64,000 nt of DNA from Victivallales bacterium. Lineage in GTDB: Bacteria; Verrucomicrobiota; Lentisphaeria; Victivallales; GWF2-38-69. A program made the position numbers and the translations under genes. How positions within the stretch are numbered: the stretch's first letter is position 1; each line of letters opens with the position of its first letter. Below are positions 7,122 through 14,473 of this stretch, one piece after another. The notes under the pieces were generated by a model. The model had not been told where the DNA came from. It saw nothing but the letters and a program-made list of their open reading frames with translations, and made no database searches. The stretch covers positions 1-64,000 of the forward strand of contig JAIPJT010000003.1 of NCBI GenBank assembly GCA_021733985.1. Reading direction: 5' to 3'.

Positions 7122-7727
7122 TTATTCCTGATAGATTTCTTTTACTAATCGGTAAACTGTTGTTCCTACTTTTCTTGGCCAGTCATCACATTTAGGACTA
7201 TCTTTTGCTTCTGCATTATCAATAGCGTTATTTATTTCCGGTTTAAGTTTTGATACCTCTATATGGCACTTTTGATAGTTTGGTAGAAATTTTTTAAGTC
7301 TATTTCGGCATTTCCTTGCGGTGTCAACATCTTTCGAAGAAGGACTTTCAAAATGAAATAATAGCCAAAGCTCAAAACATGGATTACTTAATGCAAAATT
7401 ATATTTCTTTATTCCACACTCTTCAAAAACTTGATTCAGTTGCTCTTCACTTCTATCACCGGAATCTCTATCTACAACAATCCATGCTTTGAGATATTTT
7501 GATGGTTTTGCACCATTTTCTGATAAATGTTTCTTAAGTTTATCAAGAACATGTTTAGGATGTGATTTTGATTTATTATTTACAATTTGTACATCGATAG
7601 TTGAATTATCACTCTTAAATATATTGAAGTATTCTTTCTCTGTAGCTCTGCCTTCTACGCATATATAATAAGTAGTATATTTAGGTCTAAAACCACTTCT
7701 TCTTTTAAATATTCTTCTCCTATTCTT
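7122..7727 (-). CDS. rloB: RloB-like protein (TOPRIM-type partner of AAA ATPase)
   Basis: This is an RloB-family protein, 201 residues from ATG 7727. That start has AAGGTGAAG upstream and overlaps the ATPase gene by only 8 bases; longer starts up to 7769 are possible. Key elements are CVEGRATEKEYF near the N-terminus, the acidic IVVDRDSGDRSEEQ in the middle, and SNPCFELWLLFHFE. These are the Glu and Asp positions expected of a TOPRIM-like nuclease fold. RloA/RloB-type pairs are found as passengers in restriction and BREX loci, and an AAA ATPase with a TOPRIM effector resembles the PARIS and OLD-type defence arrangement. The role here, an effector triggered by its ATPase partner, is inferred. 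Confidence 0.75.
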   Translation of the reverse strand, partial: KNRRRIFKRRSGFRPKYTTYYICVEGRATEKEYFNIFKSDNSTIDVQIVNNKSKSHPKHVLDKLKKHLSENGAKPSKYLKAWIVVDRDSGDRSEEQLNQVFEECGIKKYNFALSNPCFELWLLFHFESPSSKDVDTARKCRNRLKKFLPNYQKCHIEVSKLKPEINNAIDNAEAKDSPKCDDWPRKVGTTVYRLVKEIYQE

Positions 7728-9075
7728 CATTGTTGCCATCTTCACCTTTTTCATTCCAAAGCGAGTCAATGCTGAAAGAATCTACAAGTAATATTCTTGG
7801 AACACCTCCAAATCTTCCCTGAATATAACTTTTCCTGATATCTTTATCATTTCTTACATCTTTGTAGTCGCTAATAGAATATAATTTTGATGCTTCTTCT
7901 TTGTCTCTTTCCATCACCCACATTTCATCTCTGCGAAGTAAATTCTGGTCAATAAGCATCAGGTCATGGGTTGTAAAAATAAGCTGAGACCTGGAATCCT
8001 TAGAGCAGGAATTTAGGTAGGTCTGCAAAAGCCTTTTAACTAAAAGTGAATGAAGGCTTCTATCAAGCTCGTCAATAATGTAGACTTTCCCCGAGTCGGC
8101 CTGAGATGATTCAATAAAGGCCGGAAGCAGATCTATAACTCTTTTTGTCCCGTCTGATTCTTTAGTAAAGTCAAACTTCTTTTCAACTCCACTGGAATTT
8201 GAGTGGTAAGAAACAATTTTAACAGCTTCAATATCCTCACCATTCTTATTATAGAGAACATATTTTTCGCCATTTGGTAAATCGAGATTGGTTACAGATT
8301 TAGCAGGTATTTTTTCAATTTCTTCTTTAATCTTAGAGTAATGGGGAACAGAATCTAAAGGTATGCTCTCTTCTCCTATCCTCTGTACGCCGGTGTCCAA
8401 ACCCTGCAATGCACTGTTTACAAGGTCTTTAAGAGGAGCTTTTTCAGCAGTGAATTCATTATAGGCATGAAATTTAGTGTGAGGTTCGAGTATGACAAGC
8501 CTGTTTTTAAACCAGTAATAGATATTCTCAAAATCTTTAATATTCTGAGAAACTGTATTTGTTAAAAAGAGCTGGTTTTTTCTTGTGCCTTCTGCCGCAT
8601 ATTTTAATCTTTGAGAAGATGAGTATTTTGAATTAAAATTTACTACGTTATTATGATTTCGTCTGAATACTTCGCTTTCCGTAGTTTTCAAAATTTTTAT
8701 CAGCCACTCTTCTACGATAGAATGTTTATTAATCTTAAAGCCGTACTCATATATATGGTCATCAACTGAAATGACAAAAACAAACTCACTGGACTTGCTT
8801 GAAAGACCATCTAATAAAAATGGCTCTACAGGTATCAATTCATCGATCTGCATCCCTCTGACAATTATATTTTGTGCAAACCTCAATGCCTTTACAAAAT
8901 TTGACTTACCTGATGCATTTCCACCGTAAATCGATGCTATTGGTAAGAGATTAATGTCATAGCTTTCTATATAAGGCAGACGGGGTTTCTTTTGACGTTC
9001 TGCCGTCTTCTCCATTGAAAACACTGTTTTATCTTTAAAAGAAAGAAAATTCGTAACTGAAAAACTAACTAACAT
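7720..9075 (-). CDS. AAA ATPase, RloA-like, SMC/ABC-type
   Basis: A 451-residue ATPase of the AAA_15/AAA_21 (OLD-like, SMC-type) group. The N-terminus MLVSFSVTNFLSF is the family's typical first strand. Walker A is GGNASGKS at residues 51-58. The C-terminal lobe has FTKESDGTKR (signature-like), VYIIDELDRSLH (Walker B with catalytic Glu) and LIFTTHDLMLID (switch His). It overlaps the RloB-like gene by translational coupling, so the two form a module. The module is inserted between pglX and pglZ of the BREX operon. Likely a phage-sensing ATPase that controls the RloB partner; this is inferred from related two-gene systems. Confidence 0.8.
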   Translation of the reverse strand: MLVSFSVTNFLSFKDKTVFSMEKTAERQKKPRLPYIESYDINLLPIASIYGGNASGKSNFVKALRFAQNIIVRGMQIDELIPVEPFLLDGLSSKSSEFVFVISVDDHIYEYGFKINKHSIVEEWLIKILKTTESEVFRRNHNNVVNFNSKYSSSQRLKYAAEGTRKNQLFLTNTVSQNIKDFENIYYWFKNRLVILEPHTKFHAYNEFTAEKAPLKDLVNSALQGLDTGVQRIGEESIPLDSVPHYSKIKEEIEKIPAKSVTNLDLPNGEKYVLYNKNGEDIEAVKIVSYHSNSSGVEKKFDFTKESDGTKRVIDLLPAFIESSQADSGKVYIIDELDRSLHSLLVKRLLQTYLNSCSKDSRSQLIFTTHDLMLIDQNLLRRDEMWVMERDKEEASKLYSISDYKDVRNDKDIRKSYIQGRFGGVPRILLVDSFSIDSLWNEKGEDGNNEE

Positions 9076-9193: not shown

Positions 9194-9261
9194 AACCACG
9201 GAATGCACGGAAACCACGAAAATTTATTTTATTTTCGTGAACTTTCGCGTCTTCCGTGGTT
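9194..9261. repeat. CACGGAA-type hairpin repeat
   Basis: AACCACGGAA at the left is perfectly mirrored by TTCCGTGGTT at the right, with inner CACGGAAACCACGAAAA and TTTTCGTGAACTTTCGCG nearly complementary. It fills the gap between pglX and the AAA ATPase gene and could act as a partial terminator or RNA-processing site in the operon. Confidence 0.8.
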
Positions 9262-9265
9262 TGGT

Positions 9266-12200
9266 TTAGCTTAGACCTGTTACTTTAGCCAGTGCTTTGC
9301 CGAATTTTTTATAATTGACTTTTACTCCGTCATCGAGATCTATTTCTATCTTTTCTGTTGCCAGTGGATAGATAGTGTTCTTTTCATAGTCTTCAAGGTC
9401 TTTGATGATTTTTACGGTATTATCCAACTCTTTCTGGGCTTTGCGTTTGTCTTTGTCTGAGATAGATTCGCTTATTGTCATCCTGTTCAGATGTTCTTTA
9501 TGCGAATTAAGCTTGTTCTGATATTCTCTGAGATAGTCATTCAGGATCACAGAAACTGTGTCAGGTTTATATCGGTGCATATAAATCAGAGCGTTGAAAT
9601 ACTTTTTAGGACTGCTGAACATCCAGTAAATAGGCCGTTTCTTGTATCTTTTTATGTGGTCAGCATAAAAGTCTTTTACAAAATATTTTCTTATATCTTT
9701 ACCGATTGCGTTTTCTATGAAATTCAGATTTTCTTCAAAGTGTTGCTGACCAAAAGTAACCTTTAAAAACTTTTTAAATCGCTCCACAATATCATCGGAG
9801 AACCATTCACTATCCAGAACAGGAATAACATTATCCTCATCCGGCATGAAGGATAAGTGGCTAGTGCTTAGTGGCCAGTGGCTAGTTTTGACATTAAGGC
9901 TGGAATCATTTTGCTTATTTCCTGATGAATATTCATTAACTGGAGCATTTGTTCCTTCGACAGATAGTTTAAGCGATGAGTTATCAGTAATTGCGTTTCC
10001 AGTTCCGCCAGAGAACCCCTTGCTATTGATAGGAAATTTCTGAATTCCGCTGTTGAATTCCGAGCCTGTCCTTCGGCTATGTTCGATGGTATCGATACCG
10101 CAGCTCTTCGAATCTGACTGGTCAGTCCGTATATCTCCTCTTTCGGAAATTGCCTGGTTGCCTGATAAACCATCTCCACTAAATCCATCGCTTTCTGCCA
10201 TACTATTAGATCTTTGTAACATTTTATCACTGTCTGAATCTCCATTATTATTTTCTGCATAGTTACTAACCACTAGCCCCTGGACACTATGCACTTCCCC
10301 TGTTCCCTCTGCACTAGTCACTAAGCACTGGCCACTAGCCACTTTGCTGATGTAATCAGCAACGGTCTCGCCCTGATTGGCGAGGATTAGCCCGGGTTTG
10401 TCGAGTGAATAACGACCGAACATACAGCCAACTGCATAACTGATAAACTCTTTCATAGTATCAGCTCGAAATCGCTCTTTGAGCTCAGTGTTTAGTGGAT
10501 AGTGGTTAGTGGCTAGATTTTTTTCTTCACTATTGACTAGTCCCTGGTCACTAGCCACTCTATCGCTTTCAGCGTCCACGCTGTAACGATAGTAAGGATT
10601 TCCCGTCAGCGTAATTTCTTTTAGTGGAACATCAGGAGTCAATTCATCCTGCAAACCATAAGCTTCAATGAAAATACGATTGTTTTCTTCTTCCAACTCT
10701 TTCATCTGCATTGTCATGTTCTGATAATAATCGAAATATTGATTGTAAGCATCTGAAAGAGTAGTGTTTAGTGGATAGTGACTAGTGTCTAGTTTTCCTT
10801 CGTTGCTATCCACCGGCCACTGGCCAGTAGCCACTTCTTTTATCTTACTAGCCACTAGCCACTGACCACTAGCCACTTTAAGAAGCGGTAGCTTCGTAAA
10901 GTCCCATGAGGTTTCGAAGTTGTCCCAGTCTTTTTTTGATAGATTTAACAATGAGCTGCAAAAATTATTACTTTTAATTTTCTCTAATATTGGCAGGACT
11001 GCCATATTACCCGGTTGAATATTCAATGTAGGGTTAATTGCAAGAATATAATAACGACCTACTTTACTACATAAAAATGATAATAAAATAAAAATATAAT
11101 CATTGTCCTTTACTGCACAAAGACCAGATGCATCATCAAATAAAAATCCTTTGGGTGAATATCTAAAGTCTGGTATTGCAGATGTTATTTTTGACCAAAT
11201 AATGGCAGGTTTAAATATATAATTTAAATTGTGATTAGTGGAATTCCCATGCCAACCCAATTCTTTCATATGCAGTAATTTAAATCCGTCTTTTTCCCAA
11301 TCAACTACGCTTAAATGATTGCCATACCACTGCCTAAAATCTCCACCCTTTTGATAGGGGAACCACTTTTTTGTTGAAGTTTTAGCTTCCGCTCTTGAAC
11401 TAAAATTAAACCCAAGTTTATTAATATTTAATTCAAACCAAAACCTTACAAAATAGTCATTATCTCTTGTACACATGCCTTTTCTTGGATTAGCAACTTC
11501 ATTTAAAAGTTTACAATTGTCGAGAATAACTAACGCCATTTCAGGAATCCCATAAGCAATAGGCGAACCTGGTATTTTTTTGAAGTCTGAAGCTGAAGCG
11601 GTGAAGAACCACCCGCAGTCATGATTATTAATTGCCTCAAGGGTTTTAGGTGCTTGATTTCTATGGCCTTTAAACTCTGAGAGCTTAATATATCCCCCTT
11701 TAAAATCTGGATTGTATGAATTTTCTAAAGTATATGTACAAATAGGAACTGTAGCACCATCAAAACCTGAATATTCTAATTGAACAAGAGATGTTATAGT
11801 TTTATTATCAAGAATGTAATTTCTTAGTTTTTCATAAGATGAAATGAACATCCAGACAAATGGGGACATAATACCAAGTTGCCCACCTTTTAAAGAAAGT
11901 TCAAAATTTCTTACAATAAAAGCAGAGAATAAATCTGACTTTACATCTGGATAATTATCTTTTGCCCATTTAGCTAATCTTGGATTCATTCCTTTCCCTC
12001 CCATATACGGAGGATTTGCGATAACGCAATGATATTTCTGAGATAGATAATCTGCCTGCTTTATTACATCTAAAACTTTTTGATGTATCTGATACAGAAA
12101 TAAATCATCTTCAGGTATTCTATCTTTAAGGTTTTCAAAGGCTTCTTTTGGATTTTGTAATGCTGGAATGATCAGAGATCCAAAATTATCAGCTTCTGCA

Positions 12201-13813
12201 AATTGGAGAAGAGTTTTTCTTAAGTCAATAGTAAACAGATCTTCGCCTACTTTATCCATATAGGATGACATTTCATCATCGCTAAACTCAATATTTTGCA
12301 GTATACAGATATTTGGTGCAACTGGTCGTCTGAAGAAGCGTCTGTCGTATTCCCTTGCTTTCATTGTCAAAGCAAAAGCTGCCAAAGCTCCCGCTCTGGC
12401 ATCTATTTCTATACCATGAAGATTCTTTTCAAGTATTAGTTTCGGAATATCTTTCTTTTCATAAAAACACTCTTCATAAATCTTAGTCAATAGGTCAAAT
12501 GCATACACAAGAATATGACCGCTTCCACAGGCCGGATCACAGATTCGGATTTCTTCCGGGGAAGAAACCCTCAAGTGGTTAGTGGTTAGTGGCTGGTGGC
12601 TGGTTTTGACATTAGAGCCGGCAGCATTTTGCTGATTTGGCAATGAGTTTCCATAATCCATGCTACTTGATCCTGATTTATATAATTCAGGCGATGTGCA
12701 ATTAACACTTGGGTCTCTACTTCCGCAAGAGATCCTCTCGCTATTGATAGGAAGTTTTTGAATTCTGCTGTTGAGCTCCTTGCCTGTCCTTCTGCTATGT
12801 TCGATGGAACTGATACTGCAGCTCTTAGAATCTGTGATGTCAGCCCGTAAATCTCTTCTCTCGGAAAGTTTTTGGTCACCTGATAGATTTGTTCCGTCAA
12901 GTCCATTGCTTTCTGCCACACAATCAGTTCTCTGTAGTTTTTCACTGTCATTATAGTTCTCCCTATTCTTCTTACTATCCACTAGCCCCTGGCCACTAGC
13001 CACGTCCTCAGGCTCTATAAAGTATTCCATGTGGTTTTTAAGTTTGGAATCTGGATTATTCAGCATCCATAGCCTGCCTAAAGAGTTTTCAACCATATAT
13101 TTCACAATCCAGTGAGGTGTAAAGAGCTGTGTGGCTGCTGGAATATTTTCAGGATTAATCTTTCTGTTTTTCTTTAAGTTTTCAAAAACCTCATCTTTCT
13201 TCTCTGATATATAGAACTGATACATCCAACCAATGCTTTCTACTTCACCTATATTCTTACTGGAAAGCTGCATGAAATCAGATATTATTGACTTTTCACT
13301 AAGCAGGTCATCAGGCATAAGAAGTTCTGTGTAATCATCAAGCTTTTCAAACATAAACGGCATCAATTCGTAATAAGTATGACAAACCGCAAGCAGTAAC
13401 AGTTTATAAGCTTCATTTTGGGGATTAGACACATTGATTTTGCCGGTTAAAAGTCTGGCAATGTAACTCCTGTCAAGTTTCAGCTTTTCATCAATTATGC
13501 CTTTTTTAGCATCATCAAGTATTTCGGGTTGAGTATAGCCATCAATAGCGGAAACAACTTTTACATCTGTATAGTTGTTTGCATCCATAAAGCGTAAAGC
13601 CATAAAACGGTTAAACCAGGTATAAGCTATTCTCCTGCAAAAGAGGTTTTCGCCCAGCTTATCTACTTCTTTTTTTATGTTTTTCACCTGACTGGATTTT
13701 TCACGAAGTTCCGGTGTATCTCTGTTTAAAACATAGTTGAGTCTGGCTCTGACCTGCTCTAAAAGTTTTCGCCTGGCTGACTGAGCGAATGTTTTTAACT
13801 TATTTGTATCCAT
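9266..13813 (-). CDS. pglX: BREX adenine-specific DNA methyltransferase PglX, with four in-frame insertions
   Basis: PglX is the BREX N6-adenine methyltransferase that marks host DNA. The N-terminal helical region is followed by MTase motif I DPACGSG at residues 426-432 and motif IV NPPY at 600-603, then a target-recognition region and a helical C-terminus ending in KKFGKALAKVTGLS. At 1515 residues it is about 350 longer than the usual ~1150-1200. The excess sits in four insertions at residues about 271-413, 979-1018, 1086-1109 and 1158-1319, all low-complexity Ser/Asn-rich peptide flanked by phrases such as VASGQWLVAS and PLNT. Each matches a DNA element made of octamer arrays, and two hide a second ORF. 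The first insert lies just before motif I. The frame stays open throughout, so the protein may still be made; whether it is active is unknown. Confidence 0.92.
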   Translation of the reverse strand: MDTNKLKTFAQSARRKLLEQVRARLNYVLNRDTPELREKSSQVKNIKKEVDKLGENLFCRRIAYTWFNRFMALRFMDANNYTDVKVVSAIDGYTQPEILDDAKKGIIDEKLKLDRSYIARLLTGKINVSNPQNEAYKLLLLAVCHTYYELMPFMFEKLDDYTELLMPDDLLSEKSIISDFMQLSSKNIGEVESIGWMYQFYISEKKDEVFENLKKNRKINPENIPAATQLFTPHWIVKYMVENSLGRLWMLNNPDSKLKNHMEYFIEPEDVASGQGLVDSKKNRENYNDSEKLQRTDCVAESNGLDGTNLSGDQKLSERRDLRADITDSKSCSISSIEHSRRTGKELNSRIQKLPINSERISCGSRDPSVNCTSPELYKSGSSSMDYGNSLPNQQNAAGSNVKTSHQPLTTNHLRVSSPEEIRICDPACGSGHILVYAFDLLTKIYEECFYEKKDIPKLILEKNLHGIEIDARAGALAAFALTMKAREYDRRFFRRPVAPNICILQNIEFSDDEMSSYMDKVGEDLFTIDLRKTLLQFAEADNFGSLIIPALQNPKEAFENLKDRIPEDDLFLYQIHQKVLDVIKQADYLSQKYHCVIANPPYMGGKGMNPRLAKWAKDNYPDVKSDLFSAFIVRNFELSLKGGQLGIMSPFVWMFISSYEKLRNYILDNKTITSLVQLEYSGFDGATVPICTYTLENSYNPDFKGGYIKLSEFKGHRNQAPKTLEAINNHDCGWFFTASASDFKKIPGSPIAYGIPEMALVILDNCKLLNEVANPRKGMCTRDNDYFVRFWFELNINKLGFNFSSRAEAKTSTKKWFPYQKGGDFRQWYGNHLSVVDWEKDGFKLLHMKELGWHGNSTNHNLNYIFKPAIIWSKITSAIPDFRYSPKGFLFDDASGLCAVKDNDYIFILLSFLCSKVGRYYILAINPTLNIQPGNMAVLPILEKIKSNNFCSSLLNLSKKDWDNFETSWDFTKLPLLKVASGQWLVASKIKEVATGQWPVDSNEGKLDTSHYPLNTTLSDAYNQYFDYYQNMTMQMKELEEENNRIFIEAYGLQDELTPDVPLKEITLTGNPYYRYSVDAESDRVASDQGLVNSEEKNLATNHYPLNTELKERFRADTMKEFISYAVGCMFGRYSLDKPGLILANQGETVADYISKVASGQCLVTSAEGTGEVHSVQGLVVSNYAENNNGDSDSDKMLQRSNSMAESDGFSGDGLSGNQAISERGDIRTDQSDSKSCGIDTIEHSRRTGSEFNSGIQKFPINSKGFSGGTGNAITDNSSLKLSVEGTNAPVNEYSSGNKQNDSSLNVKTSHWPLSTSHLSFMPDEDNVIPVLDSEWFSDDIVERFKKFLKVTFGQQHFEENLNFIENAIGKDIRKYFVKDFYADHIKRYKKRPIYWMFSSPKKYFNALIYMHRYKPDTVSVILNDYLREYQNKLNSHKEHLNRMTISESISDKDKRKAQKELDNTVKIIKDLEDYEKNTIYPLATEKIEIDLDDGVKVNYKKFGKALAKVTGLS
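9857..10342 (-). mobile_element. S23-type intervening element B inside pglX
   Basis: A ~486-bp insertion bounded by degenerate octamer arrays: GTGGCTAGTGCTTAGTGG at the left (9857-9885) and the inverted counterpart with ACTAGCCCCTGG and CTGGCCACTAGCCAC at the right (10270-10342). It carries one four-helix-bundle ORF. The length is divisible by three with these boundaries, and the pglX frame reads straight through. It closely resembles element A at 12575-13003 in order, flanks and coding content. Confidence 0.8.
9868..10245 (-). CDS. four-helix-bundle (S23/IVP-family) protein nested in pglX, copy B
   Basis: This 125-residue protein belongs to the four-helix-bundle family first known from intervening sequences of 23S rRNA genes. 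Diagnostic phrases are DLIVWQKAMDL, IYGLTSQIRRAAVSIP, SNIAEGQARNS and FLSIARGSLAELETQL. ATG 10245 matches the start of copy A best, although an upstream ATG at 10260 is in frame. It lies on the same strand as pglX in another frame, so it would need internal initiation on the BREX mRNA. Its last codons (SKLATGH) are encoded by the flanking octamer array. The protein function is unknown; relatives are thought to bind nucleic acid. Confidence 0.8.
   Translation of the reverse strand: MEIQTVIKCYKDLIVWQKAMDLVEMVYQATRQFPKEEIYGLTSQIRRAAVSIPSNIAEGQARNSTAEFRNFLSIARGSLAELETQLLITHRLNYLSKEQMLQLMNIHQEISKMIPALMSKLATGH
10487..10558 (-). repeat. miniature octamer-array insertion C in pglX
   Basis: A ~72-bp insertion with a left array AGTGTTTAGTGGATAGTGG (from 10487) and an inverted right array ACTAGTCCCTGGTCACTAG (from 10536), with no ORF between them. 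It is read as about 24 extra PglX residues (VASDQGLVNS ... TNHYPLNT). It is an empty or miniature form of elements A and B. Confidence 0.75.
10762..10877 (-). repeat. miniature octamer-array insertion D in pglX
   Basis: A ~116-bp stretch of octamer arrays: TAGTGTTTAGTGGATAGTG at the left, then two inverted blocks CCACTGGCCAGTAGCCAC and CTAGCCACTAGCCACTG. It is read in frame as about 39 extra PglX residues (VASGQWLVAS, VATGQWPVDS, TSHYPLNT). The doubled right block suggests array expansion or two nested insertions. Confidence 0.7.
12575..13003 (-). mobile_element. S23-type intervening element A inside pglX
   Basis: A ~429-bp insertion flanked by octamer arrays in inverted orientation: GTGGTTAGTGGTTAGTGG at the left (12575-12603) and CCACTAGCCCCTGGCCACTA at the right (12979-13003). 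The two arrays are complementary at about 20 of 25 positions. The length is a multiple of three, and pglX reads through as Ser-rich peptide between EYFIEPED and SPEEIRICDPACGSG. It holds one four-helix-bundle ORF in the same relative phase as element B. Confidence 0.8.
12586..12951 (-). CDS. four-helix-bundle (S23/IVP-family) protein nested in pglX, copy A
   Basis: A 121-residue four-helix-bundle protein: YRELIVWQKAMDLTEQIY, then IYGLTSQILRAAVSVP, SNIAEGQARSS and ARGSLAEVETQVLIAHRL. It is roughly 70% identical by eye to copy B. ATG 12951 is preceded by GGGAGAACTATA, a credible ribosome-binding site, so independent translation from the BREX transcript is plausible. The stop codon lies inside the left octamer array. 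The phase relative to pglX is the same as for copy B: both starts are offset by 1 modulo 3 from the pglX start. Function unknown. Confidence 0.82.
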   Translation of the reverse strand: MTVKNYRELIVWQKAMDLTEQIYQVTKNFPREEIYGLTSQILRAAVSVPSNIAEGQARSSTAEFKNFLSIARGSLAEVETQVLIAHRLNYINQDQVAWIMETHCQISKMLPALMSKPATSH

Positions 13814-13846: not shown

Positions 13847-14473
13847 CTATCTTTTGCTCTGTCTTATTTTATAAAGCCTTTCTGTAAATCCACCATTATC
13901 TTCAAAATCTTTTGCCAACCTCTCAATCTGCTTTGACAAAAGACTGCACGCAACATGGATATACACTAAAGCAGAGTTAGCAGCTATCCCCTGAAAAGTC
14001 ATCCTCTTTGACAACCTGGACCGGTTGGACAACTTGTTTGGTGAGTTAGAATGTCCATTGTGTCCATCATGTCCAAGTTGTCTATCATGTACTTCATGCA
14101 CCCATAAAACCACTTCTTCCAGAGAAGAAAATCTTCTATCTATCAACTCCCTGCAAAGTATGTGGTCTCTGTCCCAAAGCTCCAGGCTTTTCTGTCGCAA
14201 AAAATCTTCATAATCCAGTTTCAATTCTTCAAGACTTGCTCTTGCAACATTTGTAAGCTTTAGCTCAGTTTTCCTGGAAGTTGCCGATGCCTGACTTCCT
14301 TCCGCTATATTCTGAACTCCGCTTCTTGCAGCCTGAACCATCTGATCTTTGGTTCTGCTGAACTTATCGATATAGCGGTCACAAAACTTTACTGTTAAAT
14401 CGTAAGCCAACTGAGCAATCTGAAAACTTTTCAGATTTCTGTATCCTCCATGTTTTTGGATTAAATCACTCAA
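13847..14473 (-). CDS. four-helix-bundle protein with C-terminal suffix domain
   Basis: A 208-residue protein between brxC and pglX. Residues 1-125 form the four-helix bundle (LKSFQIAQLAYDLTVKF, KDQMVQAARSGVQNIAEGSQ, ARASLEELKLDYEDFL). Residues about 127-155 are a low-complexity spacer (LGHDGHNGHSNSPN), and the rest is a helical suffix (TFQGIAANSALVYIHVACSL). The start is TTG at 14473, with AAGGAAAAACC upstream. The spacer is encoded by another octamer array (14007-14091), so this gene has also taken up the repeat type. Unlike the nested copies it occupies its own slot in the operon. Its role in BREX, if any, is unknown. Confidence 0.75.
   Translation of the reverse strand: MSDLIQKHGGYRNLKSFQIAQLAYDLTVKFCDRYIDKFSRTKDQMVQAARSGVQNIAEGSQASATSRKTELKLTNVARASLEELKLDYEDFLRQKSLELWDRDHILCRELIDRRFSSLEEVVLWVHEVHDRQLGHDGHNGHSNSPNKLSNRSRLSKRMTFQGIAANSALVYIHVACSLLSKQIERLAKDFEDNGGFTERLYKIRQSKR
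14007..14091 (-). repeat. GGACA-type octamer array inside the four-helix suffix gene
   Basis: Left block TTGACAACCTGGACCGGTTG then GACAACTTG; right block TGTCCATTGTGTCCATCATG then TCCAAGTTGTC in inverted orientation. Same design as the arrays in pglX (degenerate octamers facing each other) but with a different octamer. Read in frame as a His/Gly/Asn-rich spacer. Confidence 0.6.

Follow-up and report, generated by a model that had tools for sequence, protein, structure and literature searches.

An IVS/S23-type mobile cassette probably persists inside DNA methyltransferase genes by dual coding, the same bases serving its own S23 gene and the uninterrupted reading frame of its host. The case considered here lies in the window, the whole 64,000-nt stretch of Victivallales bacterium DNA that was analysed, where the adenine methyltransferase gene pglX of a type 1 BREX locus carries four insertions, each in frame, two of them with an S23 ORF (A and B) and two of them bare hairpins (C and D). 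According to the proposed mechanism, the cassette would consist of a single ORF of the S23 family, bounded on both sides by inverted arrays of a 7-nt unit, and a subset of copies would reside in protein-coding genes, nearly always those for DNA methyltransferases of phage-defence systems. Dual coding would be maintained by an invariable sense orientation, by a fixed offset of the host frame relative to S23, and by the absence of host-frame stops from the ORF and the arrays alike. The element would stay in the mRNA and ribosomes would read across it, PglX gaining disordered surface linkers, and S23 would be translated from its own internal start; hairpins C and D would be derivatives that have lost the ORF.

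The pglX gene and its four insertions

The host gene, the four elements and their parts are located in the window as follows.

9266..13813, minus strand: pglX, BREX-1 adenine methyltransferase gene, 1515 aa, of which inserted linkers make up about 354 aa
12575..13003, minus strand: element A, an S23 ORF flanked by inverted heptamer arrays, in the linker upstream of methyltransferase motif I; 429 nt, about 138 aa extra
12586..12951, minus strand: S23 (23S_rRNA_IVP) ORF of element A, 121 aa, with a PF05635 match
12974..13003, minus strand: 5′ heptamer array of element A (in the pglX sense)
12574..12604, minus strand: 3′ heptamer array of element A, complementary to the one at its 5′ end
9851..10342, minus strand: element B, the other S23 element, located in the C-terminal linker ahead of FMPDEDNVIP; about 159 aa extra
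9868..10260, minus strand: S23 ORF of element B, sharing 72% identity with the S23 of A over 119 aa
10766..10876, minus strand: element C, an in-frame inverted heptamer hairpin that has no ORF; adds about 32 aa; z = -5.2 for the RNA fold
10490..10561, minus strand: element D, an in-frame inverted heptamer hairpin that has no ORF; adds about 25 aa; z = -1.7 for the RNA fold

The BREX locus is complete, with a WYL-domain regulator, BrxA, BrxB, BrxC, PglX, PglZ and BrxL, and its PglX is recognized in a profile search by the BREX-1 PglX model NF033452 (1321 bits, cut-off 500). The top structural matches to the AlphaFold model of PglX are solved PglX/BrxX proteins, which are about 1200 aa long against 1515 aa for the protein of the window, and the solved PglX structure lacks the inserts. 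The added lengths listed above are relative to homologues without inserts.

The original prediction had described element A alone, so that B, C and D lie beyond it. It placed an intact S23/IVP-family ORF in an insertion before motif I, on the pglX strand but in another frame and with its own ribosome-binding site, and this description was borne out. The S23 ORFs of A and B score 145.6 and 151 bits against PF05635 (cut-off 33.8) and 135 and 139 bits against TIGR02436 (cut-off 24), an SD-like GGGAG lies 7 nt upstream of the ATG of the S23 of element A, and the host codons of pglX begin at the third codon position of that S23. The pglX frame stays open across the insert, as had also been claimed. 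The terminal arrays, described as inverted octamers, are indeed inverted, with 23-nt arms of 78% complementarity, but their tandem unit is 7 nt. Alignment with homologues lacking the insert, proposed as a way of finding the exact borders and any target duplication, gave the 138 extra residues at the site of A (relative, for example, to the PglX of locus L033), and a few host residues seem to be replaced at the insertions. The search for near-identical empty sites in close relatives, by which exact borders could be set, yielded none, the closest plasmid PglX being 59% identical, and no target duplication was seen at the pglX insertions in comparison with homologues without inserts, none of which is a close relative. 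In the AlphaFold model, PglX residues 270-412 (nt 12578-13006) have a pLDDT of about 25 and no secondary structure, and the host-frame peptide of insert A is accordingly predicted to be disordered; outside insert A, the modelled part, and with it most of the methyltransferase core, mostly has a pLDDT above 70.

A scan of the 2.46-Mb genome for the heptamer pattern gave 16 matches, all 16 inside pglX, and two more S23 ORFs, one of them a fragment, are found on other contigs of the same genome. The gene appears to have arrived already carrying its elements. Between brxC and pglX is a 208-aa gene (13847-14473, minus strand) with an S23-like N-terminus and a TIGR04258 'four helix bundle suffix' domain, the linker of which holds a 9-nt tandem array at 14051-14098. 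Immediately 3′ of pglX, at 9194-9262, inverted 9-nt arrays (AACCACGGA ... TCCGTGGTT) form a period-9 counterpart of the heptamer hairpins, and their weak Rfam miRNA matches are surely spurious. An AbiLi/AbiLii-like pair (an ATPase and a small partner, 7122-9075) is located within the BREX locus between pglX and pglZ, and a second, partial PglX-like methyltransferase, 33% identical, is encoded elsewhere in the same genome (G000 contig C50:4-1692).

S23 elements inside and outside coding genes

A scan of GTDB genomes with S23 proteins provided 80 loci from many phyla. Period-7 arrays are present on both S23 flanks at 60 of 70 testable loci as compared with none of 55 control pairs placed 1.5 kb off, and 7 is the best period among 4-13 at 67 of the 70. 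The sequence of the unit varies by element (AGTGGCT, AGTGGGG, AGACCTT, GCTAGAT and others), and the arms pair better within one element (mean -75 kcal/mol) than between elements (-57 kcal/mol). Taken with the heptamer repeats that precede the S23 ORF in the RNase III-cut 23S rRNA IVS of Coxiella burnetii (PMC4990558), these arrays around S23 identify the family as an IVS kind of element. The family is mostly intergenic, and most S23 elements of the same clades as nested ones sit between unrelated genes; the intergenic copies are co-directional with the upstream gene in 37 of 55 cases (p = 0.014). No S23 match was found in an annotated phage collection, and plasmid S23 matches are less than 60% identical.

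Some further occurrences were observed. Three IMG/VR loci (L259, L260, L262) have S23 elements between phage head-protein genes, outside long ORFs. Two genomes of the same class, G165 and G076, hold 540 and 137 heptamer-pattern matches, and some relatives are thus heavily populated. Heptamer arrays or hairpins lie in frame in RHS-like, helicase-like and small protein genes (L237, L241 and L232), examples showing that bare hairpins occur beyond methyltransferases. At L050:1-200, a pglX with an S23 element has, upstream of that element, a long in-frame heptamer array that encodes GSGQWGV repeats.

The search of genomes for coding genes interrupted by an S23 ORF with arrays, which the original prediction had called for, yielded 29 S23 elements that lie within long ORFs, spread over about ten phyla. 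These comprise 19 of the 80 GTDB loci, one locus cut by a contig end (L046), the two elements of the window, one in G080, five nested copies among the 115 S23 regions of an in-phylum survey, and one on an IMG/VR contig (L258). An assembly error, named at the outset as a possible refutation, is excluded by the recurrence of the arrangement in many independent genomes. All 29 copies are on the host strand and in the same relative frame (+2), and their restriction to the sense orientation is consistent with S23 having to be produced from the host transcript. The hosts are 22 BREX PglX genes, four N6_N4_Mtase (Mod-type) genes, two MmeI-type genes and one Mfd gene; DNA methyltransferases thus make up 28 of 29, a share that is biased upward by the seeding of the main search with pglX-resident S23. 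The in-phylum sample, obtained with the same profile, reached more distant S23 copies, and four of its five nested copies are in methyltransferases. Among the loci surveyed, no S23 element was found that separates two methyltransferase halves with a broken frame.

Nested copies recur in particular linkers, namely before motif I (site A), before PDEDNVIP (site B), after motif I, and in the RIRRAG region of Mod proteins. Distant lineages carry elements in the same linkers, and insertion points inside one linker lie several codons apart. In the S23 tree, which is limited by few columns and open forks, nested and intergenic copies are interleaved, with at least 16 changes. The possibility that the inserted segment is an ancestral PglX domain, which the original prediction had set against its own reading, is ruled out for site B by homologues that lack the segment and by rejection of the site-B S23 copies as a single clade (AU p = 1e-10); for site A the corresponding value is p = 0.069, and a single insertion there is possible. 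Several methyltransferase linkers have been hit repeatedly, and independently at least at site B.

This spread suggests that the element is mobile, and the heptamer arrays are presumably the ends that move. Mobilisation by a reverse transcriptase of the same genome is ruled out, as no match to RVT_1 (PF00078) was found in the 96%-complete genome. Y1 transposases are present, none of them near S23 copies.

Two frames over the same bases

A host stop inside S23 requires a T at the third codon position of S23 with AA, AG or GA after it. Nested copies have T before these dinucleotides at 0 of 639 third positions as compared with 241 of 1461 in intergenic copies, and T makes up 20% of third positions elsewhere. 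The nested set was recognized partly by its open frame, so the contrast between no host-relative stop per nested copy and about 4.6 per intergenic copy, like that between no in-phase stop in nested array arms and an average of 1.4 in intergenic arms, describes the constraint more than it proves it. Support that is independent of the open frame comes from homology, with methyltransferase sequence on both sides of the nested copies. A chance overlap of frames is rejected by synonymous-codon shuffles, in which 2.9 host-frame stops are expected per nested copy and none is observed in 22 of 22.

Between nested pairs, the dN/dS of S23 is 0.04-0.15, and that of the same bases read in the host frame is 1.9-5, an excess over 1 that is partly mechanical and due to overlap with conserved S23. 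The S23 protein is under strong purifying selection in nested copies. Given this conservation and the values for the same bases in the host frame, the host-frame peptide seems to be constrained solely to lack stops. The stop-free host frame of every methyltransferase-nested copy also implies that ribosomes read through the element, and both frames would, to judge from the sequence, be translated.

A rather unlikely reading, though one deserving of consideration, is that S23 works together with DNA methyltransferases or regulates them, and that it is no passenger but lies within the very gene it serves; it might, for example, bind its own mRNA hairpin and tune PglX synthesis. The strong conservation of S23 and the predominance of DNA methyltransferases among nested hosts (28 of 29) are consistent with such a role, as are the intergenic S23 genes located immediately upstream of pglX at L077, L079 and L121 and the other S23-like gene ahead of pglX in the window. 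However, S23 elements of the same clades mostly lie between unrelated genes, many PglX homologues, solved functional ones among them, have no S23 element, and bare hairpins are also found in genes for proteins other than methyltransferases.

Cutting of the mRNA at the arrays, on which the original prediction had sought evidence, would make them the two sides of a stem cleaved by RNase III as in the 23S rRNA IVS, with the mRNA fragmented and PglX made in pieces or down-regulated. The ORF family and inverted ends are those of rRNA IVS elements, the Coxiella IVS with heptamers before its S23 ORF is cut by this enzyme (PMC4990558), and element C forms a strong hairpin (z = -5.2). The fold of element A, by comparison, is no stronger than that of shuffled sequence (z = -1.1), and the stop-free host frame of all methyltransferase-nested copies would be needless if the mRNA were cut, so this reading is improbable. 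Obligatory RNase III cutting or splicing is disfavoured in general, because the open frame would then be pointless.

Phase variation, whereby gain or loss of one 7-nt unit would shift the frame and toggle the methyltransferase, is suggested by a unit length that is no multiple of three within methyltransferase genes and by the known repeat-tract switching of type III mod genes such as ModA (PMC4525171). It is still less probable, as the purity of nested arrays is lower than that of intergenic ones (median 0.76/0.71 against 0.81/0.86), the few units per nested array should limit slippage, and S23 would be left without a role. Removal as a self-splicing intron or in the manner of an intein, for which an ORF-bearing insert at recurrent sites of a conserved gene might speak, is scarcely credible, since no Rfam intron family matches at E <= 1, Pfam finds methyltransferase families only and no intein domain in PglX, and the insert is in frame and stop-free throughout. 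There is no rRNA match at element A, which is inside pglX and not a 23S rRNA gene.

Relation to known elements and significance

Element A is like the IVS of Coxiella burnetii (PMC4990558) in length (429 nt as compared with 428 nt), in its single S23-family ORF, in its inverted ends and in the heptamer repeats that adjoin the ORF. Unlike 23S rRNA IVS elements, element A has a protein-coding gene as host, its DNA is dual-coding, with the host frame open over ORF and arrays, and excision from the RNA is not expected to be a requirement. Rickettsia palindromic elements (RPEs) are palindromic in-frame insertions in protein-coding genes, a description that also applies to elements C and D and, as regards form, to A and B. 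RPEs differ in having other sequences and other hosts, and they are not known to carry an ORF of their own, as A and B do. The S23 protein belongs to the same four-helix-bundle superfamily as the Avd protein of DGRs (bAvd; NF033474, PF22296), with weak profile similarity: the two S23 ORFs reach 31.9 and 34.2 bits against the Avd equivalog NF033474 (below its cut-off of 80), and 34.8 bits against PF22296 is likewise below the cut-off of 40. The genome of the window, unlike a DGR Avd system, has no reverse transcriptase match. The TAACTGA heptanucleotide repeats of Beggiatoaceae (PMC4679880) are also tandem 7-nt units, mostly intergenic and suspected to be mobile, but they are direct and not inverted around an S23 ORF, S23 is not mentioned for them, and TAACTGA in forward orientation places stops in all frames.

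Each of the three components, S23 IVS elements, palindromic insertions that keep the frame and heptamer repeats, is already known. The view that no description existed held up in the open-access literature searched, where neither an S23 element in a coding gene, pglX included, nor a gene-carrying element that lives in coding genes through dual coding was found. The preference for methyltransferases may reflect protection from deletion together with horizontal spread, or a working relation between S23 and the enzyme. The best guess is that copies in methyltransferase genes resist deletion and spread because the host is harmed when the methyltransferase is lost and because defence islands undergo horizontal transfer. 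It is possible, and is proposed here tentatively, that these copies belong to a selfish S23 heptamer family specialized for defence DNA-methyltransferase genes, held to a two-frame constraint, repeatedly invading linkers and protected from deletion.

Mobile elements in bacterial genes usually break the gene or need to be removed from the RNA or protein. Here, an element with a conserved gene seems able to endure within coding sequence by meeting the demands of two frames, in about ten phyla, which extends the rRNA IVS class and offers a clear example from nature of overlapping frames under selection. It also makes the function of the S23 protein testable, and at such loci standard annotation may treat the host gene or the nested one incorrectly. 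The selfish family, if it is real, would be an equivalent, in protein-coding genes, of the rRNA IVS, with no need for splicing or excision.
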